From positions 1,544,001 through 1,608,000 of the forward strand of contig NZ_CP032544.1 in NCBI RefSeq assembly GCF_003867075.1: 64,000 nucleotides of DNA. Reading direction: 5' to 3'. This DNA is from Tenacibaculum mesophilum. Its GTDB lineage: Bacteria; Bacteroidota; Bacteroidia; Flavobacteriales; Flavobacteriaceae. The translations under genes and the position numbers were made by a program. The notes under the pieces were generated by a model. It made no database searches. It saw only the letters and a program-made list of their open reading frames with translations, and was not told the DNA's origin. Positions 16,501 to 24,877 of the stretch are shown piece after piece (positions within the stretch are counted from its first letter, which is position 1; each line of letters starts with the position of its first letter).

Positions 16501-17184
16501 ATGAGAAAAGAAAAACAATCTGCTTTGTTAGCAGATAATTGCCCGCTTATTTGTGAAACGTACAAGAACATAATATCTAAAATAGCTAGGTTAAACCCAA
16601 GTTTTAATTTTAACACAGACATTACCTATAATTGTAATGGAGCTTACGACATTATAAAAAAAACAATTGAAAAAGAAACTTCACTTAGCTTTGTTGTTTT
16701 AGACTTAAAACTTTCTCCTGCTAAGAATAGAAAAATCTTATCTGGTGAAGATTTAGGGCTTTTAATAAGAAAATTACTTCCAAACACAAGACTGATTGTT
16801 TCTACTGATTGTAATGATAATTACAGAATTTATAACATTTTTAAAAGCTTAAATCCTGAAGGTTTTCTTATTAAGAACGATTTAACTTCAAAAGAGTTAA
16901 AAAATGCAATAAAAAATGTAACAAACAATATACCTTATTATAGTAAAACTGTCTTAAGCCTCTTAAGAAAAGAAGTTTCTAATAATTTTTCCATTGACGC
17001 AATAGACAGACAAATACTATACGAACTTTCATTAGGCTCTAAAATGAAAGATATGCCGAATTACATACCTCTTTCCGCAGCTAGTATTGAAAAAAGAAAA
17101 CGACATCTAAAAAAAATATTCAATGTTAAAGCTAAAGGAGACCGAGAGTTAATATTAACAGCCAAAGAAAAGGGCTTTATTTAA
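16501..17184 (+). CDS. orphan response regulator with a LuxR-like DNA-binding end
   Basis: The 227 residues have a receiver-like first part with a likely phospho-acceptor Asp at residue 68 (FVVLDLKLS) and a conserved-type Lys in GFLIKND, and a C-terminal helix-turn-helix region (IDRQILYELSLGSKMKDMPNYI, about 165-186). The acidic pocket (LLADN) has one Asp where two acids are usual, so it is a diverged receiver. No histidine kinase is adjacent. It lies directly upstream of the peptide-export locus on the same strand, so it is a candidate regulator for it; that link is inference. Confidence 0.75.
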   Translation: MRKEKQSALLADNCPLICETYKNIISKIARLNPSFNFNTDITYNCNGAYDIIKKTIEKETSLSFVVLDLKLSPAKNRKILSGEDLGLLIRKLLPNTRLIVSTDCNDNYRIYNIFKSLNPEGFLIKNDLTSKELKNAIKNVTNNIPYYSKTVLSLLRKEVSNNFSIDAIDRQILYELSLGSKMKDMPNYIPLSAASIEKRKRHLKKIFNVKAKGDRELILTAKEKGFI

Positions 17185-17254: not shown

Positions 17255-17262
17255 TAGCTTTG
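17255..17262 (+). promoter_or_regulatory. -7 promoter element before the VKOR-thioredoxin gene
   Basis: TAGCTTTG fits TAnnTTTG. Its last three bases are an in-frame TTG that can be mistaken for the start codon of the next gene, so I prefer a start further down, at 17302. Confidence 0.5.
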
Positions 17263-17301
17263 GGGAAACAGAAAATAACTATCCTTAAAACCTTTTTACT
17301 T

Positions 17302-18900
17302 TTGAAAGACACATTAATCAATTTAGTACAAAATTTACTTAAGAAAAATAGTATTTCTTTTGATAAGGAAGAATTGGCTTTTCAAATTCAAAGTCACCCT
17401 TCTTACCCTAGTTTACACGCAATTACTGGAGTATTAGACCATTTTAACATTGAAAATGTGGCAGCTGACGTTCCTGTTAATTCAGAAACACTTTTGCAAC
17501 TCCCCGACTGTTTTATTGCTCAAATAAACAGTGAACATGGTCAAGACTTAATTGTAGTAGAAAGAAAAAAATCAGATTATATAATTTATGATTCTGAAAA
17601 CAAAAAAACGAAGTTATCTGAAAATGAGTTTCTAAGTAAATTTACAGGAATTATTGTTGCTGTTGAAGAAACTGAGGGTTATCAAACAACTAAAAATAAC
17701 TCCAAATTAGTTAAAACTATCGGTTTTTCTCTTCTTAGTATTTTTACGTTATTTTTTGTTTTTTATAGTTCAACTTCATGGTACAATACTTTTTATTTCT
17801 TACTATCAGTAACAGGATTAATTATCAGTATCGCAATTGTAAAACAAGAACTTGGATTGAAAACCGCTATTGGTGATGCTTTTTGTTCAGGAGCTGATGA
17901 TAAAAAAGATTGTGACGCTGTATTAACCTCAAAAGGAGCGGAAATTTTAAAAGGATATAAATTAAGTGACTTTAGCTTGCTTTATTTTATTGGGTTATCT
18001 CTTTTAACTTTTACTCAAATTTCTAATCCTGTAATTTCATATACTATTAGTTTACTTGCTATACCTATTACTCTATACTCGCTATATTATCAATATGCAG
18101 TAGTAAAAAAGTGGTGTCTTTTATGCTTAAGTATAGTTGGAGTTCTTTGGCTACAAGCACTGGCTCCAGTATTGACAAATAATTACATTAACACCTTTAT
18201 AATTAAAGATTTTGTCACCTTGGGTATCGTTGCTTCTTTTACGTGGTTAGCTTGGAATTATATTAAACCTTTATTTACTGAAGTTCAAGAACTCAAAAAA
18301 GAAAAGATAGCAAGTGTTAAATTTAAGAGAAACTATGCATTGTTTGATAGTTTATTACAAAAATCACCTCAACTTGACACTCAATTAACTGATAGTAAAG
18401 AAATTGTTTTTGGAAACCCTAACTCCAGCCTTGAAATTACAATAATCACCAATCCTTTCTGTGGACACTGTAAACCTGTTCACGCTCATGTTGATGAAAT
18501 TATTAAAAGATACCATAACAATGTAAAAATTAAAGTACGCTTTAATGTAAGTGTAGAAAAAAAAGATAGTGATGTCGTTAAAATTACCAGTAGACTCATA
18601 GAAATATATAATACACAAGGAGAAAAAGAATGTCTTCAAGCCATGGATGCTATTTATGAAGGGCAGAAACCAGCTGCTTGGTTAAAAAAATGGGGTGAAT
18701 GTTCTAATAAAGAAACTTATACATTGGAGCTAGAAAAAGAAAAGAATTGGTGTAATCAAAATGGCATCAACTTTACTCCTGAAATTTTAGTAAACGGTAA
18801 ATCATTTCCTAAGGAATATAACAGAACTGATTTAATTTTATTTATTGAAGATTTAGAAGAAAATATAGAAGCTTCTGATGTTTCATTAAAAACAGTATAA
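17302..18900 (+). CDS. membrane VKOR-thioredoxin fusion with C39-like front domain
   Basis: Likely makes disulfide bonds in exported peptides. With the TTG start at 17302 it has 532 residues. A C39-peptidase-like domain without the catalytic Cys comes first (HPSYPSLHAITGVLDHF, about 35-51), then about five membrane spans carrying the vitamin K epoxide reductase core: Cys pair in CSGADDKKDC (about 194-203) and WCLLC (about 270). A thioredoxin-like domain with CGHC (about 387) and a late WC follows. VKOR fused to thioredoxin is a known way of passing electrons from secreted cysteines to quinones. It precedes eight cysteine-rich peptide genes. An alternative TTG at 17260 is inside a promoter box. 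Confidence 0.88.
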   Translation: MKDTLINLVQNLLKKNSISFDKEELAFQIQSHPSYPSLHAITGVLDHFNIENVAADVPVNSETLLQLPDCFIAQINSEHGQDLIVVERKKSDYIIYDSENKKTKLSENEFLSKFTGIIVAVEETEGYQTTKNNSKLVKTIGFSLLSIFTLFFVFYSSTSWYNTFYFLLSVTGLIISIAIVKQELGLKTAIGDAFCSGADDKKDCDAVLTSKGAEILKGYKLSDFSLLYFIGLSLLTFTQISNPVISYTISLLAIPITLYSLYYQYAVVKKWCLLCLSIVGVLWLQALAPVLTNNYINTFIIKDFVTLGIVASFTWLAWNYIKPLFTEVQELKKEKIASVKFKRNYALFDSLLQKSPQLDTQLTDSKEIVFGNPNSSLEITIITNPFCGHCKPVHAHVDEIIKRYHNNVKIKVRFNVSVEKKDSDVVKITSRLIEIYNTQGEKECLQAMDAIYEGQKPAAWLKKWGECSNKETYTLELEKEKNWCNQNGINFTPEILVNGKSFPKEYNRTDLILFIEDLEENIEASDVSLKTV

Positions 18901-18927: not shown

Positions 18928-18945
18928 CATTTTGAACAAAATTCT

Positions 18946-18990
18946 CTCGCGAAGAATAGACACATTGGTGAGTGTCTTTAAATGTTCGCC
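18946..18990 (+). promoter_or_regulatory. leader element copy 1 (possible RNA pseudoknot)
   Basis: The box CTCGCGAAGAAT (18946-18957) is followed by stem 1, AGACAC (18958-18963) with GTGTCT (18972-18977). Stem 2 interlocks with it: GGTGA (18967-18971) with TCGCC (18986-18990). Compared with the other copies, the stem-2 sequence differs on both sides and still pairs. It ends 26 bases before the ATG of the first peptide gene. Confidence 0.7.
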
Positions 18991-19016
18991 GCAAAAGTAA
19001 CCTTAATATTTTAATT

Positions 19017-19178
19017 ATGAAAAAACAAATTCTAAATTTAGGTAAAGCTTTAAAAAAAGCGGAACAAGCTCAAATTAACGGAGGTAGAATGCAATGTGAT
19101 GTCAATAGAGACCGTGTTTGTGAAGACTTCGGTTGGAAATGTGCAGAAACATATTGTCGCATATTAATGCCTTTATAA
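19017..19178 (+). CDS. GG-leader cysteine-rich peptide precursor 1
   Basis: The 53-residue precursor has leader MKKQILNLGKALKKAEQ ending in NGG at residue 23, the cut site for C39 exporters, and a 30-residue core with four Cys. The core contains the Ca-loop-like stretch CDVNRDRVCED. The ATG at 19017 is chosen because the MKK(S/Q)ILNLGK leader starts there in all eight paralogues; upstream in-frame codons run into the leader RNA element. It is closely related to peptide 2, two bases downstream. Function unknown: bacteriocin, signal or other secreted peptide. Confidence 0.88.
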   Translation: MKKQILNLGKALKKAEQAQINGGRMQCDVNRDRVCEDFGWKCAETYCRILMPL

Positions 19179-19180
19179 TT

Positions 19181-19336
19181 ATGAAAAAGAAAATTTCAAA
19201 CTTAGGCAAGGCTTTAAAAAAAACAGAACAAGCTCAAATTAACGGAGGCAGAAAACAATGTGATAAAAATAGAGATGGTATCTGTGAAGACCATGGAAGA
19301 CACTGCGCAGAGTTTTATTGTAGTTTTGTTTCATAA
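19181..19336 (+). CDS. GG-leader cysteine-rich peptide precursor 2
   Basis: The 51 residues have the leader ending in NGG and a 28-residue core with four Cys in the same spacing as peptide 1 (CDKNRDGICEDHG, then CAEFYC). DKNRDG resembles the start of an EF-hand or dockerin calcium loop (D-x-N-x-D-G). It clearly arose with peptide 1 by tandem duplication. The next precursor follows 13 bases later, so peptides 1-4 form one short operon. Confidence 0.88.
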   Translation: MKKKISNLGKALKKTEQAQINGGRKQCDKNRDGICEDHGRHCAEFYCSFVS

Positions 19337-19349
19337 TAAAATTTTAATC

Positions 19350-19586
19350 ATGAAGAAGCTAATTTTAAACTTAGGTAAGACTTTAAATAAAACAGAACAA
19401 AAAACAATTAATGGTGGTAATGCCATTTTCTGTGACGCAAATGGCAACTGTCCTATGGGTAGTTATTGCGATGGTCATTTATGTATAGATAACGGTTCTG
19501 GTAATGGGGGAAGCGACCCTAATAAAGACTGTAGAAACCCTCACAGGTTTTGTATTGACGAATTCGACACTTGTTGTATCTACTAA
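19350..19586 (+). CDS. GG-leader cysteine-rich peptide precursor 3
   Basis: The 78-residue precursor begins MKKLILNLGKTLNKTEQ and has NGG before a 55-residue core with eight Cys, an acidic Gly/Ser linker (NGSGNGGSDPN) and a C-terminal CC pair. It is the longest of the set. The two-part core, one cysteine cluster on each side of the Gly-rich linker, differs from its neighbours. Confidence 0.87.
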   Translation: MKKLILNLGKTLNKTEQKTINGGNAIFCDANGNCPMGSYCDGHLCIDNGSGNGGSDPNKDCRNPHRFCIDEFDTCCIY

Positions 19587-19597
19587 AAATATTTCTT

Positions 19598-19786
19598 ATG
19601 AAGAAATCAATTTTAAACTTAGGTAAAACTCTAAACAAGAAAGAACTAAAATCAATTAACGGTTCTGTTATTATTGCCTGCTATAGTCATGCCGAGTGTC
19701 CCCAAAAAATGGGATGTTGTAAAAACCCTCCTTATATTGGAGTATGTATGGAAGGAGAAGCCTATAGAAGATTATGTAATAATTAA
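19598..19786 (+). CDS. GG-leader-type cysteine-rich peptide precursor 4 (NGS site)
   Basis: The 62 residues have the leader MKKSILNLGKTLNKKEL, but the cleavage motif reads NGS instead of NGG, which C39 peptidases may still accept. The core of about 38 residues has six Cys in the order C-C-CC-C-C, a pattern compatible with a knotted disulfide fold. It is the last of the four-peptide group and is followed by a terminator. Confidence 0.85.
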   Translation: MKKSILNLGKTLNKKELKSINGSVIIACYSHAECPQKMGCCKNPPYIGVCMEGEAYRRLCNN

Positions 19787-19793
19787 TAACTTC

Positions 19794-19827
19794 AAATAAG
19801 TTAGAGGGTTAACTCTCTAACTTATTT
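19794..19827 (+). terminator. terminator after the first peptide group
   Basis: AAATAAGTTAGAG (19794-19806) pairs perfectly over 13 bases with CTCTAACTTATTT (19815-19827). It lies between peptide 4 and the exporter gene, so the exporter may be read only by read-through or from its own promoter. Confidence 0.75.
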
Positions 19828-19843
19828 CATATCTAAACTGAAC

Positions 19844-22030
19844 TTGAAAAAATTCCCAAACTATAAACAGACAGAAGCAAAAGATTGCGGACCTACTTGT
19901 ATTAAAATCATAGCCAAACACTATGGTAAAACTATCAATACTCAACAATTAAGAAACCTAAGCGAAACAACACGTGAAGGCAGTAGCTTATTAGGTCTTA
20001 GTGAAGCTGTCGAGTCTATAGGCTTTAAGTCTTTAGGTATAAAATTAGCCTTTAACAAACTTAAAGAAGCCCCATTTCCTTGTATTATTCATTGGAATAA
20101 AAATCATTATGTGGTTCTTTACAAAATAAAAAAAGATGTTGTTTATATTTCTGACCCAGCTCATGGGCTCATCTCTTTTACTAAAGAGGAGTTTATCCAA
20201 CATTGGATTGGTAATAATGCCGATGAAAATACAGAAGAAGGTATTGCCTTATTAATAGAACCAACTCCCAAATTCTATCAAGAAGAGTTTGAAGAAGATG
20301 AAAAATTTGGTTTTTCATTTATTTTCAAATACTTATATAAATACAAAAAGTTTATAGTTCAATTAATAATTGGGCTCCTAGCTGGTAGTTTATTACAATT
20401 AATCTTACCTTTTTTAACTCAAAGTGTTGTTGATGTTGGTATTAAAAACCAAGATTTAAACTTTGTATACTTAATCTTATTTGCTCAATTATTTTTATTC
20501 ATAGGAAAAGCTTCTTTAGAAATTATTAGAAGTTGGATTTTACTTCATCTTAGTACTCGAATCAACATATCTTTAATTTCAGATTTTTTTATCAAATTAA
20601 TGAAATTACCTATCTCCTACTTCGATGTAAGAATGACAGGAGATTTATTACAAAGAATCAACGATCATAAGCGTATTGAACGAATTTTAACCACTTCTTC
20701 TTTAACTGTTTTATTCTCTTTTTTCAATCTCATAATTTTTAGTTTAGTTTTAGGATATTATAGCATGCAAATTTTTGGTGTTTTTGTGTTAGGAAGTGTT
20801 TTATATTTTGGTTGGGTATTATTCTTCTTCAAAAAGAGAAAAGAGCTTGATTATAAACGTTTTTCTCAAGTAAGTCAAGAACAAAGTAAAGTAATTGAAC
20901 TTATTAATGGAATGCAAGAGATAAAGCTTCACAATGCTGAAAGACGCATGCGATGGAATTGGGAATATGTACAAGCTCGTTTATTTAAAGTAGCTACTAA
21001 AAGCCTTGCTCTTGAACAAACACAAAGTGTAGGTTCTAACTTTATCAATGAACTTAAAAATATGTTCATTACTATACTTTCTGCTAAACTAGTAATAGAT
21101 GGACAAATTACCTTAGGTATGATGATGGCTATTAGCTACATCGTCGGACAACTAAACGGACCAATTACACAACTAATAAACTTTATGAGAGATATACAAG
21201 ATGCACAAATCTCCTTAGATAGATTAGGTGAAATACACAACATGGAAGATGAAGAAAAACCTAGTGATGAAAAAGTAACCATCATTCCAGATAACGCATC
21301 TATAAAACTAAATAATATTTCATTCAGGTACACTGGTGGTTTAGAGCCTGTTTTGAAAGATTTATCTCTTGAAATTCCTGCAAATAAAACAACCGCAATT
21401 GTAGGGGTTAGTGGAAGTGGAAAAACCACATTAATGAAATTACTTCTTGGTTTTTATCAAGTTGACCAAGGAGATATTATGATAAACAACTTTAACTTAA
21501 AAAACATTTCTCAAAAAGAATGGAGAAGAAACTGCGGTGTTGTTATGCAAGAAGGATATATCTTTAATGATTCTATAGCTAAAAACATTGCTGTGGGTGA
21601 AGATTATGTTGACAAGGAAAAGCTAGCTCACGCAATAGACGTAGCAAATATCAACGATTATATTGAGGGATTACCGCTAGGATATAATACCAAAATTGGT
21701 AGTGAAGGTAGTGGCTTAAGTACAGGTCAAAAACAACGATTACTTATTGCTAGGTCGGTATATAAAAACCCAAAATTCTTGTTCTTTGATGAAGCTACTA
21801 GTGCACTTGATGCAAATAATGAAAAAATTATTATGGGTAAGCTTAATCAATTCTTTGCTGACAAAACAGCTGTTGTAATAGCACACCGACTAAGTACTGT
21901 AAAAAACGCGCATCAAATAGTTGTCCTTGAAAAAGGAAAAATTATTGAAAAAGGAAATCATGAAGAATTAATCAAATTAAAAGGAAGTTATTACCATTTA
22001 GTCAAAAACCAACTAGATTTAGGTAAATAA
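19844..22030 (+). CDS. peptidase-containing ABC exporter (C39 domain)
   Basis: Cleaves GG leaders and exports the peptides. The 728 residues have an N-terminal C39 peptidase with catalytic Cys in KDCGPTC (about 14-20), His in NHYVVLY and Asp in DPAHG, six membrane spans at about 155-440, and a nucleotide-binding domain with Walker A GVSGSGKTT, signature LSTGQKQR and Walker B FLFFDEATSALD. The start is TTG, giving MKKFPNYKQTEAKDCG. The length is normal for the family. It lies within the peptide genes, with the adaptor downstream. Confidence 0.95.
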   Translation: MKKFPNYKQTEAKDCGPTCIKIIAKHYGKTINTQQLRNLSETTREGSSLLGLSEAVESIGFKSLGIKLAFNKLKEAPFPCIIHWNKNHYVVLYKIKKDVVYISDPAHGLISFTKEEFIQHWIGNNADENTEEGIALLIEPTPKFYQEEFEEDEKFGFSFIFKYLYKYKKFIVQLIIGLLAGSLLQLILPFLTQSVVDVGIKNQDLNFVYLILFAQLFLFIGKASLEIIRSWILLHLSTRINISLISDFFIKLMKLPISYFDVRMTGDLLQRINDHKRIERILTTSSLTVLFSFFNLIIFSLVLGYYSMQIFGVFVLGSVLYFGWVLFFFKKRKELDYKRFSQVSQEQSKVIELINGMQEIKLHNAERRMRWNWEYVQARLFKVATKSLALEQTQSVGSNFINELKNMFITILSAKLVIDGQITLGMMMAISYIVGQLNGPITQLINFMRDIQDAQISLDRLGEIHNMEDEEKPSDEKVTIIPDNASIKLNNISFRYTGGLEPVLKDLSLEIPANKTTAIVGVSGSGKTTLMKLLLGFYQVDQGDIMINNFNLKNISQKEWRRNCGVVMQEGYIFNDSIAKNIAVGEDYVDKEKLAHAIDVANINDYIEGLPLGYNTKIGSEGSGLSTGQKQRLLIARSVYKNPKFLFFDEATSALDANNEKIIMGKLNQFFADKTAVVIAHRLSTVKNAHQIVVLEKGKIIEKGNHEELIKLKGSYYHLVKNQLDLGK

Positions 22031-22038
22031 AATATTCA

Positions 22039-22086
22039 CTCGCGAAGAATAGACATAACTCTTGAGTGTCTTTAAACTATTCAAGG
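22039..22086 (+). promoter_or_regulatory. leader element copy 2 (possible RNA pseudoknot)
   Basis: The box CTCGCGAAGAAT (22039-22050) is followed by stem 1, AGACAT (22051-22056) with GTGTCT (22066-22071), with a U-G pair at one end. Stem 2 is TCTTGA (22060-22065) with TCAAGG (22081-22086). It ends 27 bases before the ATG of peptide 5. Confidence 0.7.
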
Positions 22087-22113
22087 GTTTTATCAAACTT
22101 AAATTATTTTAAA

Positions 22114-22341
22114 ATGAAAAAATCAATTTTAAATTTAGGAACACCTTTAAACAAATCTAAGCAACAGTTAATTAATGGGAGTAGTAATCAACCTTGTCCC
22201 TCAATTAATTGTTACTACGGAAATATCGATACACAACTTTATGGTAGTGCAGTTTATTGCGGTAGTTGTAGCGACTACACTAACCTCCCTAGTATCTGTA
22301 AAAACAGAGTTAGAGTTGGGGTTTATTGCTCTGGTGTTTAA
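22114..22341 (+). CDS. GG-leader-type cysteine-rich peptide precursor 5 (NGS site)
   Basis: The 75-residue precursor begins MKKSILNLGTPLNKSKQ, with Pro and no Lys in the usual GKAL stretch. It has NGS as the cleavage motif and a core of about 50 residues with six Cys, rich in Tyr and Ser (CYYGN, YCGSCSDY). It is behind leader element copy 2 and followed by a decayed precursor. Confidence 0.83.
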   Translation: MKKSILNLGTPLNKSKQQLINGSSNQPCPSINCYYGNIDTQLYGSAVYCGSCSDYTNLPSICKNRVRVGVYCSGV

Positions 22342-22344
22342 TCT

Positions 22345-22458
22345 AAAAAAAAAAGTGAAATTAAGTAAATAGAACAACAAATTAAAGTAAGTATCCATTG
22401 TGGCTCTGAAATTGATTGTTATGATCAACCATTAGTAAAACCTTTTAAGGATAATTAA
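22345..22458 (+). pseudogene. decayed peptide precursor
   Basis: No intact start remains, but the frame ending at the TAA at 22456 reads IEQQIKVSIHCGSEIDCY and onward, which resembles the end of a leader (EQQxIxGG) running into a two-Cys core. The A-rich stretch before it looks like a shortened MKKSILNLGK region. I call it a relic of a former precursor gene. Confidence 0.45.
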
Positions 22459-22552
22459 TAGAGATGTCATGCAGGAAACTGTGTCTTAACATAATTAATA
22501 TTTATTTCATCGGTGCTCTTCTACTACAAGGGTACCTTTATACACTCTAAAT

Positions 22553-23842
22553 ATGCCCGATAATTCTCAAAATATAGAAATTCGAAGTGAAGAAGTTCAA
22601 GAAATTTTAACCCATGTGCCTAACTGGATGATTCGTTGGGGTAATACTTTACTACTTGCACTTATATTAATGTTATTATTCATTTCATGGTTTGTAAAAT
22701 ATCCTGATATAATTTCTACAGAAGTAATGGTTACGACCTCTACTCCACCTGAGAAAATTTATGCAAAATCAACAGGACAATTTGAAACTTTCTTAACTAC
22801 TGAAGGCAAAAAAGTTTCTGAAGGTGATGTTTTAGCAGTTATTGAAAATAGTGCTTCTTTTAAAGATGTTTTACTATTAAAAAGTATAATTGATACAATT
22901 GAAATAAACCAACAAAAATTCTTTTTCCCTATTGATAAAGTTCCTCCACTAATTTTAGGAGATATAACCTCTAGCTACTCTCAATTTGAAAATGATTATT
23001 CTGAATATACCTTAAACGAAAAACTAACTCCGTTTAAATCGGAAAATTTCGCTAACCAAATGTCTGTTATAGAAGCTAGAGGCAGACTACAAATTTTACT
23101 TTCTCAAAAAGATTTAAATCTTAAAGAACTAGAATTTAAAGAGAAAGATCTTGATCGTAGTAGAAAAATGTTTAACCAAGGGGTTATATCTGCTAAAGAA
23201 AAAGATCAAAAAGAAATTGAATACTTACAAGCAAAACGCTCATATAAAACCCTTGAATCATCAATTTCTCAAATAAGAGAATTAATCAATAACTCTGCTA
23301 AAAACCTAGAAGGCACTTCTATAAAAAAAACACAACAAGATACTCGTTTAAAAAAGAAAGCTATTCAATCTTTTTTATACTTAAAAAAGGCTATTAAAGA
23401 CTGGGAAAAACAATATGCTCTAACTTCTTCAATAAATGGTAAAGTATCCTTCTTATCTTTTTGGAATAAAAATCAAACGGTTAATACGGGTGATTTAATA
23501 TTCACCATTATTCCTAATAAAGGGAATTCATTTATCGGTAAAATTGAAGCTCCTGCTGCTAATTCTGGTAAAATAAAGAAAGGTCAAAAAGTTCAGATTA
23601 AACTTTTAAATTATCCATCTGATGAATTTGGCGAATTAAATGGAAGAGTTAAATCAATTTCTTTAACTCCTGATGAGGAAGGTAATTACTTAATTAATGT
23701 AGAGTTACCACAAAAATTAATAACAACATACAATAAAACTATTCCTTTTAGACAAGAAATGAAAGGTGCTGCGGATATAGTAACGGAAGATTTACGTTTA
23801 ATAGAACGTTTCTTTTATCAATTAAAAAATATTATCAAATAA
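22553..23842 (+). CDS. HlyD-family secretion adaptor
   Basis: Periplasmic adaptor that should join the C39 exporter to an outer-membrane channel. The 429 residues have a short cytosolic start, one membrane span at about 27-47, a biotinyl-lipoyl-like region (KSTGQFETFLTTEGKKVSEG), a long coiled-coil hairpin at about 165-270 and a beta-barrel part near the end (KIKKGQKVQIKLLNYP). It lies between peptide genes, 522 bases after the exporter gene. No TolC-like gene is in the window, so the outer-membrane exit must be encoded elsewhere. Confidence 0.92.
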   Translation: MPDNSQNIEIRSEEVQEILTHVPNWMIRWGNTLLLALILMLLFISWFVKYPDIISTEVMVTTSTPPEKIYAKSTGQFETFLTTEGKKVSEGDVLAVIENSASFKDVLLLKSIIDTIEINQQKFFFPIDKVPPLILGDITSSYSQFENDYSEYTLNEKLTPFKSENFANQMSVIEARGRLQILLSQKDLNLKELEFKEKDLDRSRKMFNQGVISAKEKDQKEIEYLQAKRSYKTLESSISQIRELINNSAKNLEGTSIKKTQQDTRLKKKAIQSFLYLKKAIKDWEKQYALTSSINGKVSFLSFWNKNQTVNTGDLIFTIIPNKGNSFIGKIEAPAANSGKIKKGQKVQIKLLNYPSDEFGELNGRVKSISLTPDEEGNYLINVELPQKLITTYNKTIPFRQEMKGAADIVTEDLRLIERFFYQLKNIIK

Positions 23843-23850
23843 TAAAAAAC

Positions 23851-23885
23851 AGACATAAACCTTGAGTGTCTATAAATGTTCAAGG
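23851..23885 (+). promoter_or_regulatory. leader element copy 3 (stems only)
   Basis: Stem 1 is AGACAT (23851-23856) with GTGTCT (23866-23871); stem 2 is CCTTGA (23860-23865) with TCAAGG (23880-23885). The upstream CTCGCGAAGAAT box of the other copies is absent, so the two stems are the conserved core. It ends 29 bases before the ATG of peptide 6. Confidence 0.65.
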
Positions 23886-23914
23886 AATTTATTAACCCTC
23901 GAAATTTTTCTATT

Positions 23915-24106
23915 ATGAAAAAATCAATTTTAAATCTAGGAAAAGCTTTAACTAAAGCTGATCAAAAACAAGTTAACGGAGGTACTGGTTGTGTAATTTA
24001 TACACCAGCAGAGTGCTTTGCTTGTGGTGGTTTCTCTTTACCTAACGGATGTTGCTTAGGATCGTATGAAACACATGCTTGTTTAGGAGAAGATGTTCCT
24101 CAATAA
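23915..24106 (+). CDS. GG-leader cysteine-rich peptide precursor 6
   Basis: The 63 residues have leader MKKSILNLGKALTKADQKQV ending in NGG, then a 27-residue-plus core with six Cys (CVIY, CFACGG, GCCLG, HACLG). It is behind leader element copy 3 and followed by a strong hairpin, so it looks like a single-gene transcript. Confidence 0.86.
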   Translation: MKKSILNLGKALTKADQKQVNGGTGCVIYTPAECFACGGFSLPNGCCLGSYETHACLGEDVPQ

Positions 24107-24140
24107 GAGAGTTCATTTACTATTATTTTAATTGAATCAT

Positions 24141-24186
24141 TCCTAGGTTTAAACCAATTAAGAATAAAGTAGGTTTAAACCTAGGA
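24141..24186 (+). terminator. long hairpin after peptide 6
   Basis: TCCTAGGTTTAAACC (24141-24155) pairs perfectly over 15 bases with GGTTTAAACCTAGGA (24172-24186) around a 16-base loop. Both arms contain CCTAGG and TTTAAA. The T-run is weak. Confidence 0.6.
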
Positions 24187-24274
24187 TAAATTTAGATTAT
24201 ACACAAGTAGACTATCAAGCCAATATAGATTATAAATTTACCCTAATAGAACAACTCATTATTAATAATATTTA

Positions 24275-24323
24275 CTCGCGAAGAATAGACACAAAACCTT
24301 GAGTGTCTTTAAATAATTCAAGG
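24275..24323 (+). promoter_or_regulatory. leader element copy 4 (possible RNA pseudoknot)
   Basis: The box CTCGCGAAGAAT (24275-24286) is followed by stem 1, AGACAC (24287-24292) with GTGTCT (24303-24308). The AAAA link is followed by stem 2, CCTTGA (24297-24302) with TCAAGG (24318-24323). All pairs are Watson-Crick. It ends 27 bases before the ATG of peptide 7, and serves as the reference copy. Confidence 0.75.
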
Positions 24324-24350
24324 ATTATTAAATATTTAAATTTTTTAATC

Positions 24351-24530
24351 ATGAAAAAATCAATCTTAAAATTAGGTAAAGCTTTAGAAAAAGCCAATCA
24401 AAAACAAATTAATGGAGGTGCTGCCAATAGTTGTTATCAAGATGGTAGAAAATGTTGTCAAACTAGTCCAGGAGGACATACTATATGTGATGCTGGTAGA
24501 TGTGACAGATTTGGATGTATTTGGTATTAA
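24351..24530 (+). CDS. GG-leader cysteine-rich peptide precursor 7
   Basis: The 59 residues have leader MKKSILKLGKALEKANQKQI ending in NGG, and a core of about 36 residues with six Cys, including KCCQ and a C-terminal CDRFGCIWY. The core is basic and Gly-rich. It is behind leader element copy 4 and shares a transcript with peptide 8, 18 bases downstream. Confidence 0.86.
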   Translation: MKKSILKLGKALEKANQKQINGGAANSCYQDGRKCCQTSPGGHTICDAGRCDRFGCIWY

Positions 24531-24548
24531 ATTTAAAACTTTTAAGTT

Positions 24549-24692
24549 ATGAAAAAATCAATCTTAAACTTAGGAAAAGTTTTAAATAAAACTACTCAAA
24601 AGAATACCTTTGGAGGAAGAGTTCCTAGATGCTGTTTAGACTGGGATCCAATTCAACGCCACTGCTACAAATGGCAGCCAAACTGTTTATAA
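24549..24692 (+). CDS. GG-leader cysteine-rich peptide precursor 8 (47 residues)
   Basis: This short gene is easily missed. It reads MKKSILNLGKVLNKTTQ, then FGG and a 24-residue core, RVPRCCLDWDPIQRHC followed by YKWQPNCL, with four Cys. The leader matches its paralogues residue for residue at the start. Phe before GG instead of Asn is unlike the others. A 13-base hairpin 27 bases later closes the unit. Confidence 0.82.
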   Translation: MKKSILNLGKVLNKTTQKNTFGGRVPRCCLDWDPIQRHCYKWQPNCL

Positions 24693-24719
24693 GCTTTTTA
24701 ATTAAAGCTATATTAATTA

Positions 24720-24752
24720 CAAACAGCTAGAATCATAACTTCTAGCTGTTTG
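24720..24752 (+). terminator. terminator after peptide 8
   Basis: CAAACAGCTAGAA (24720-24732) pairs perfectly with TTCTAGCTGTTTG (24740-24752), a 13-base stem with a 7-base loop, soon followed by T- and A-rich sequence. Confidence 0.75.
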
Positions 24753-24810
24753 CTTATTAAAAAAATATAGTCTTGTTAAAAAGCATAATACTAGTAAAAT
24801 TTCTTTTACA

Positions 24811-24853
24811 AAGAATAAACACAAAACCTTGAGTGTCTTTAAAGAATTTAACA
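24811..24853 (+). promoter_or_regulatory. leader element copy 5, decayed
   Basis: AAGAAT, ACACAAAACCTTGAGTGTCT and TTTAAA are kept, but stem 1 has an A-C mismatch (AAACAC against GTGTCT) and the TCAAGG arm of stem 2 is lost. It stands before the broken precursor at 24878, so gene and leader have decayed together. The rest of the 24.7-25.2 kb gap holds the neighbouring terminators and no other gene that I can see. Confidence 0.6.
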
Positions 24854-24877
24854 ACTAATCAATTTTAACTTATTATC

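Follow-up and report, generated by a model that had tools for sequence, protein, structure and literature searches.

Why does one short element recur in front of the peptide genes of a small export cluster, does it act as RNA or as DNA, and at which step? The question is raised by a stretch of 64,000 nucleotides (nt) from Tenacibaculum mesophilum (contig NZ_CP032544.1, positions 1,544,001 to 1,608,000; hereafter the window), in which Pfam identifies a C39/VKOR/thioredoxin fusion, a C39 ATP-binding cassette (ABC) exporter and an HlyD adaptor, and in which eight short genes encode products starting with a double-glycine (GG) leader. The element consists of a palindromic box (P0) followed by a predicted H-type pseudoknot of two interlocked stems, S1 and S2. 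The window carries four intact copies and one decayed copy, each located 5' of a GG-leader peptide gene or the remnant of one. The original prediction, made from the window alone, had placed these copies at 18946, 22039, 23851 and 24275, with the decayed one at 24811, and all were located as claimed. Of the link lengths proposed for the pseudoknot, that of 8–9 bases was recovered as loop 3 (8–9 nt), whereas that of 3–4 bases corresponds to a loop 1 of 2–4 nt; loop 2 has a length of 0. The distance from S2 to the ATG was indeed constant in the window, but over 25–29 nt rather than 26–29 nt, and the double change described in S2 is real (GGTGA/TCGCC in copy 1, CTTGA/TCAAG elsewhere). Three additional copies, each preceding another GG-leader peptide gene, were found in the same genome (3.34 Mb, one contig) at 1386837, 1899254 and 1050856 of contig 1.

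A covariance model was searched over the family, a check that the original prediction had proposed, and both stems were found to covary widely. Identical rows or copies were removed before counting, as were copies with an N after the element or too close to the end of the locus. The three resulting alignments (75, 94 and 61 rows) had 98.2, 96.8 and 95.8% of their cells paired, and 46, 154 and 110 cells with a double change, against 6.9, 43.5 and 28.6 after shuffling, respectively; they overlap in part, some genomes being present in more than one, so they are not independent, and they were fitted to models with S2 and without S1. Ten of the 12 pairs changed on both sides in each alignment. None of 500 shuffles, a statistic that ignores kinship, matched the observed percentage of pairing or number of double changes, and slid versions of the stems reached 57% pairing at most. 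When S2 was read without any fitted alignment, with loop 3 fixed at 8 nt, all six positions paired in 140 of the 231 copies, against 40.1 copies when the 3' arm was swapped for that of another copy.

Over the three alignments, 2496 cells were Watson-Crick pairs, 137 were G.U, 21 were A.C and 61 were other mismatches (G.U 104 and A.C 14 when only two of the three alignments were counted). The large excess of G.U over A.C points to an RNA read from the sense strand and argues against a DNA operator. At one S2 position, the pairs GC (32), UA (27), CG (17), UG (10) and AU (4) were all observed, and diverged copies keep the architecture with different stems, such as AGGACC/GGTCCT with TCGTGT/ACACGA, TGGCAT/GTGCCA and GGACCG/CGGTCC. 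Loop 1 is 3 nt long in 229 of the 233 rows, and loop 3 is 8–9 nt long in 226; these lengths are sterically possible for an H-type pseudoknot. Loop 1 opens with an A in 229 of the 233 copies. An 8-nt loop 3 occurs in 189 copies, of which 188 have A at position 3, 187 have A at position 4 and 181 have G at position 7. The two stems are thus interlocked and each is backed by covariation, and we consider it almost certain, from this comparative evidence, that the element forms an H-type pseudoknot in RNA, as originally predicted.

The shape alone is not distinctive. A lax H-type grammar gave 19 matches on the plus strand of the window and 21 on the minus strand, so the copies are distinguished by their repeated sequence and context. 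A stricter grammar, requiring AA in loop 3, was applied to loci totalling 3.19 Mb with both strands counted, many of them chosen because they carry the element; it yielded 360 raw and 290 distinct matches, 238 of the distinct matches preceding a GG-like frame and 52 not. When a quarter of the loci were block-shuffled (365 kb), the same grammar found no match.

The context of the element is narrow. In the three sets together, 224 of 233 distinct copies are followed by an ATG frame of at least 28 residues; a GG at residues 16–34 was found in 203 of these 224 frames (22% of shuffled peptides), and GG, GS or GA in 214 (38% of shuffled peptides). At least two broken pairs occurred in four of the nine copies lacking a peptide frame and in 21 of the 224 with one (Fisher p 0.009, kinship ignored). 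The distance from S2 to the ATG was 25–29 nt in 184 of the 224 copies with an ATG frame (133 of 165 copies when two sets are considered). The 26 nt after S2 are nearly free of G (103 of 4524 bases, two sets), so no G+C-rich terminator or sequestering helix is present there. Two rare copies (L080 513–555 and L139 1501–1552) do not precede peptides: one, which is degenerate, stands before a C39/VKOR fusion gene and the other before a lipoprotein-like gene.

Several known signals were considered in and around the element. A consensus promoter (TAnnTTTG) between S2 and the ATG was rejected, the G being present in one of 84 TAnnTTTx matches in the 39 nt after S2, and the search for a conserved −33/−7 promoter upstream of the element gave no positional signal other than the A-rich stretch and box described below. 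An upstream open reading frame in loop 3 (AAATG) was rejected because it is not conserved, TTAAACGGT and TTAATAGT also occurring, and so was the AAGG of the S2 3' arm as a Shine-Dalgarno sequence, since other copies have TCACAG, TTGAAG and the like. Flavobacteria initiate translation with signals other than Shine-Dalgarno (PMC9723704).

An A-rich stretch and a palindrome, mostly ATTCTYTCGCGAAGAAT, lie directly 5' of S1; other copies have CTTGCAAG, TTTTGCGCAAAA, TTTCTGCAGAAA, TTCTTATAAGAA and further forms. This conserved box, not named in the original prediction, is part of the element. A long frame ends at most 60 nt upstream of 85 of the 235 copies, indicating that the element also sits between the genes of apparent operons, and the box is present in 78 of these 85 copies, in 19 of the 20 with a frame end 61–150 nt upstream and in 92 of the 130 others, against 12% of shuffled windows. 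In the genome of the window, box matches with at most one mismatch coincide with element copies in four of six cases; with two mismatches allowed, the box has fewer matches than a reversed control pattern. The box covaries in part. Among 234 copies, three arm pairs showed 29, 49 and 14 double changes, against 10.8, 24.8 and 4.3 in shuffles (0/500 each), with G.U 93 and A.C 25, and the pair adjoining the loop showed nine against 3.6 (1/500). The two outermost pairs showed no clear excess (102 and 62 of 500 shuffles reach the observed values), and these two and the loop-adjacent pair together gave G.U 22 and A.C 77. In the 105 copies without TCGCGA, just two of the three arm pairs remained above shuffles. 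Predicted folding is weak (mean z −0.58, and −0.20 in control windows). The centre of the box is self-complementary in many of its forms (CGCG, TGCA, GCGC, TCGA, TATA and CATG), a property that a simple RNA hairpin loop does not require. The box could possibly act through loop-loop dimers or through a DNA-binding dimer, and it may be either a simple RNA hairpin or a DNA site.

A first model, built from four copies, detected the element in 10 of the 36 genomes searched within the genus (E ≤0.001), and a second, built from 80 copies, in 52 of 397 genomes of the family, belonging to 44 of 237 genera (E ≤0.001). A third model (E ≤0.0001) gave matches in 14 genomes out of 296 for the order (12 belonging to the family) and in nine out of 395 for the class (six belonging to the family); one genome of the same genus had 19 matches. 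Only 14–19 candidates per genome were scored in the family, order and class scans, so these prevalences are lower bounds. Beyond the family, GG-leader genes are preceded by two copies in G753 and by a weaker one in G1057, the copy in G878 precedes a different, secreted-looking protein, and G475 and G500 gave matches that look like chance. A named scan returned 109 stretches; among the 80 listed, 28 were from Tenacibaculum, and the others included Aquimarina, Winogradskyella, Dokdonia, Bizionia, Kordia, Olleya, Lacinutrix, Mangrovimonas, Psychroserpens, Polaribacter, Pontimicrobium, Galbibacter, Lutibacter, a Flavobacterium bin and two metagenome bins labelled Roseivirga and Oligoflexales.

The element is associated with the exporter. 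A close exporter relative was present in 44 of the 52 family genomes with the element and in 45 of the 345 others (kinship ignored). Rescanning 18 of the 45 exporter genomes without the element, with more candidates, gave three weak matches, around which a motif search found no peptide gene. Six exporter regions were read. One (G312, locus L325) contains a diverged copy on the minus strand at 1696, with the stems AGGACC/GGTCCT and TCGTGT/ACACGA; it escaped the covariance model, so the true spread is probably wider. A motif search found no peptide gene in two others (G344 and G181).

We suggest that the element is probably a cis-acting leader RNA that sets the translation of secreted-peptide genes together with a common trans-acting factor. 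Once transcribed and folded in the cell, the pseudoknot, directly behind the P0 box and about 27 nt 5' of the start codon of the GG-leader peptide gene, would be located at the 5' edge of the initiating 30S subunit, leaving an almost G-free, single-stranded landing zone up to the AUG. Its folding or unfolding, or the binding of a common factor, which we infer to be a protein or a small ligand, would then jointly set how the peptide genes of a cell are translated. An initiation element is expected to keep a constant distance from the ATG with an open landing zone, an element of elongation or decay less so. Several observations weigh against this interpretation. No alternative fold or expression platform that would indicate switching was found. 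The constant spacing could be due in part to common descent, and differential mRNA processing or stability would also account for the copies inside operons. Over all six box pairs, in a bulged register, G.U (115) is barely above A.C (102), a poor fit to an RNA hairpin. Furthermore, 45 of the 89 family genomes with a close exporter relative lack the element according to the model, so it is not indispensable for this export system. We propose more tentatively, as a doubtful extension, that the element represents a new class of leader RNAs, in bacteria whose initiation is not reliant on Shine-Dalgarno pairing, docking beside the mRNA exit site of the 30S subunit, where it would recruit or gate the ribosome at a fixed 25–29 nt from the AUG.

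The same data have to be weighed against other functions. The pseudoknot may be the aptamer of a riboswitch that binds a small molecule or a peptide, with the invariant loop bases as its pocket and translation as the step controlled. Compact H-type pseudoknots are known as aptamers (see below), some loop bases of the element are near-invariant while the stems vary, and many copies stand before one functional class, but we consider this unlikely, as an expression platform is not recognisable and the genes downstream are nearly all of one peptide class and not metabolic, so that no ligand is suggested. Less likely still is an element of mRNA stability or processing, in which the box and pseudoknot would protect or define the 5' end of short peptide mRNAs, some of them cut from the transporter operon. 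Many copies do start shortly past an ABC or hlyD stop codon, and a single element serves several tandem peptide genes (19017–19786 in the window); however, a protective structure would not need a constant 25–29 nt to the ATG, and the invariant loop bases suggest specific recognition.

The original prediction had named a DNA operator for the upstream response regulator as the alternative to an RNA. As DNA, the stems and the box form inverted repeats, several forms of the box are palindromic to the centre, and there is no clear G.U excess over all box pairs. Nevertheless, the four Watson-Crick pair types at a single S2 position and the strand asymmetry of G.U and A.C led us to reject an operator in the stems, which diverge in sequence with their architecture conserved, unlike half-sites constrained by sequence. 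The response regulator was present in six of the 42 loci with at least 1000 nt before the fusion gene that it normally precedes (some loci overlap), so this adjoining regulator is not the general factor, and the coincidence of box matches with element copies in the genome of the window also speaks against an operator. An operator is therefore very improbable, although for the box alone it is possible. The least probable reading, and in our opinion a far-fetched one, is a recombination site of peptide cassettes, folded as single-stranded DNA like the attC sites of integrons. Peptide units have been duplicated together with the element (three identical elements in L076), but the constant distance to the ATG, the G.U asymmetry and the existence of orphan copies are at odds with such a site, and the element precedes the gene instead of lying behind it. 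Translation-level control by a leader RNA thus remains the reading that we favour.

The features of the window are listed in the table. In the decayed copy 5 (from 24817), one S1 pair and S2 are broken, and the remnant downstream seems to have lost its ATG. For the window peptides, every match in the family libraries lies under the curated cut-off, and one of five typed relatives passes one cut-off (TIGR01847). A long inverted repeat (TCCTAGGTTTAAACC ... GGTTTAAACCTAGGA, 24141–24186) separates the copy-3 and copy-4 peptide units, with no clear T tract after it. The C39 ABC exporter is better conserved between genera (about 66–98% identity for the majority of full-length matches from element loci) than the adjoining VKOR fusion or adaptor.

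Table. Element copies, peptide genes and neighbouring genes of the export cluster in the window.
Feature	Position	Strand	Details
Copy 1, P0 box	18941..18957	+	ATTCTCTCGCGAAGAAT; position conserved across copies; partly covarying
Copy 1, predicted H-type pseudoknot	18958..18991	+	S1 AGACAC/GTGTCT (18958-18963/18972-18977); S2 TGGTGA/TCGCCG (18966-18971/18986-18991); ATG 19017; stems read from sequence
GG-leader peptide, first of four tandem genes after copy 1	19017..19178	+	Leader MKKQILNLGKALKKAEQAQINGG
Three more GG-leader peptides	19181..19786	+	ATG 19181, 19350, 19598; without own element
Copy 2, P0 box	22034..22050	+	3 nt past stop of ABC transporter gene
Copy 2, predicted pseudoknot	22051..22086	+	S1 AGACAT/GTGTCT (22051-22056/22066-22071); S2 TCTTGA/TCAAGG (22060-22065/22081-22086); ATG 22114
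GG-leader peptide after copy 2	22114..22341	+	
Copy 3, predicted pseudoknot	23851..23885	+	Without P0 box; 8 nt past hlyD stop; S1 AGACAT/GTGTCT (23851-23856/23866-23871); S2 CCTTGA/TCAAGG (23860-23865/23880-23885); ATG 23915
GG-leader peptide after copy 3	23915..24106	+	
Copy 4, P0 box	24270..24286	+	
Copy 4, predicted pseudoknot	24287..24323	+	S1 AGACAC/GTGTCT (24287-24292/24303-24308); S2 CCTTGA/TCAAGG (24297-24302/24318-24323); ATG 24351
GG-leader peptide after copy 4	24351..24530	+	
Second GG-leader peptide of copy-4 unit	24549..24692	+	Without own element
Copy 5, decayed element	24800..24854	+	Before peptide remnant without ATG; S1 AAACAC/GTGTCT; S2 3' arm broken; 30.5 bits
C39 peptidase-like/VKOR/thioredoxin fusion	17260..18900	+	Partner gene of peptide cluster; PF03412, PF07884, PF13462
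C39 peptidase ABC exporter	19844..22030	+	PF03412, PF00664, PF00005
HlyD-type adaptor	22553..23842	+	PF13437
Response regulator-like protein	16501..17184	+	Weak NCBIfam response-regulator match (41.7 bits, cut-off 300)

The element is thus a structured RNA candidate present in 44 genera of the family sample, with up to 19 matches per genome and no match in Rfam 15, and it marks genes for secreted peptides. It provides a handle for finding such genes without knowing the peptides, which the profile libraries used hardly recognise, and it leads to the prediction of a regulator or ligand shared by them. It also makes translation start testable in a phylum in which Shine-Dalgarno pairing is not the rule.

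The original prediction knew of no described RNA of this shape, and Rfam 15 (4227 families) indeed has no family for the element: at the gathering score, the window gave tRNAs only, and in 10 + 9 further loci, scanned at a relaxed E-value, no family reached that score at the element. A cmscan of nine loci at E ≤10 gave one chance-level overlap with the element (L064, 15.6 bits, E 9). We found no description of the element in Rfam 15 or in the open-licence full-text literature, papers under closed licences not being searchable. Known systems can nevertheless be compared with it. In the translational operator of phage T4 gene 32 and the pseudoknot operators of ribosomal proteins (S15, S4), an upstream pseudoknot and a bound protein control initiation; these likewise lie 5' of the start codon, but in unrelated hosts, whereas here many copies precede one class of genes. 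The preQ1-I and SAM-II riboswitches are compact H-type pseudoknot aptamers in leaders. The SAM-V riboswitch is described in the same terms. The element differs from all three in having no Rfam match, no metabolic targets seen and a start region that is not sequestered. The Downstream-peptide motif (RF01704) is a structured RNA that precedes short peptide genes, as the element does. It is listed for Cyanobacteria and marine samples (PMC2864571). This origin, and the lack of an Rfam match for the element, set the two apart.

The nearest known kind is the DUF805b RNA (RF02914, clan CL00115), of which the element is not a member. At its gathering cut-off, the DUF805b covariance model matched no element in the window or in the 10 and nine further loci, and it detected the DUF805b copies of L327 and L181; reading element copies by eye did not reveal the GAAAA loop together with the AGAGUAGG tail, both conserved in DUF805b. 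DUF805b also differs in sequence and has shorter stems; its S2 5' arm is separated from its S1 3' arm by five bases, whereas these arms adjoin in the element. It has no such box, and it stands before many other genes too. By eye, the NCC of its loop seems to covary with the GGN of its tail (GCC/GGC, ACC/GGT, TCC/GGA), so that DUF805b may itself be an H-type pseudoknot. DUF805b matches (E ≤0.001) were present in 91 of 149 genomes of the family, 69 of them over the cut-off. The genome of the window has six, four of them over the cut-off and all outside the window (G000:C1, 818672, 912839, 1031728, 1231753, 212493 and 2796073). Five of 30 listed DUF805b loci had no match to the regular expression and four were off register; of the remaining 21, six precede GG-leader peptides (by eye). 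Examples of DUF805b before such genes are L327 7312–7346 (−), L324, L181 8745–8780 (−) and L198 2656–2690 (−). Among the exporter regions read, the peptide gene of G190 (L327) is preceded by DUF805b above the cut-off, two peptide genes of G143 (L324) by matches below it, and that of G281 (L326) by a leader similar by eye, with no Rfam match. To our knowledge, DUF805b is a catalogued RNA whose function is unexplained, and it acquires a functional setting from its occurrence at the same site in some sister genomes. Should ribosome docking, the tentative extension considered above, hold for both RNAs, several short pseudoknots would serve this phylum to signal initiation on messages for secreted products. 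Like the element, DUF805b is a short leader RNA of the same bacterial family; the ATG follows it after 18–29 nt in 20 of the 21 in-register loci, and the genes that it precedes in some sister genomes include GG-leader peptide genes of the same kind. One class of genes is thus preceded, at comparable distances, by two different short leader RNAs.

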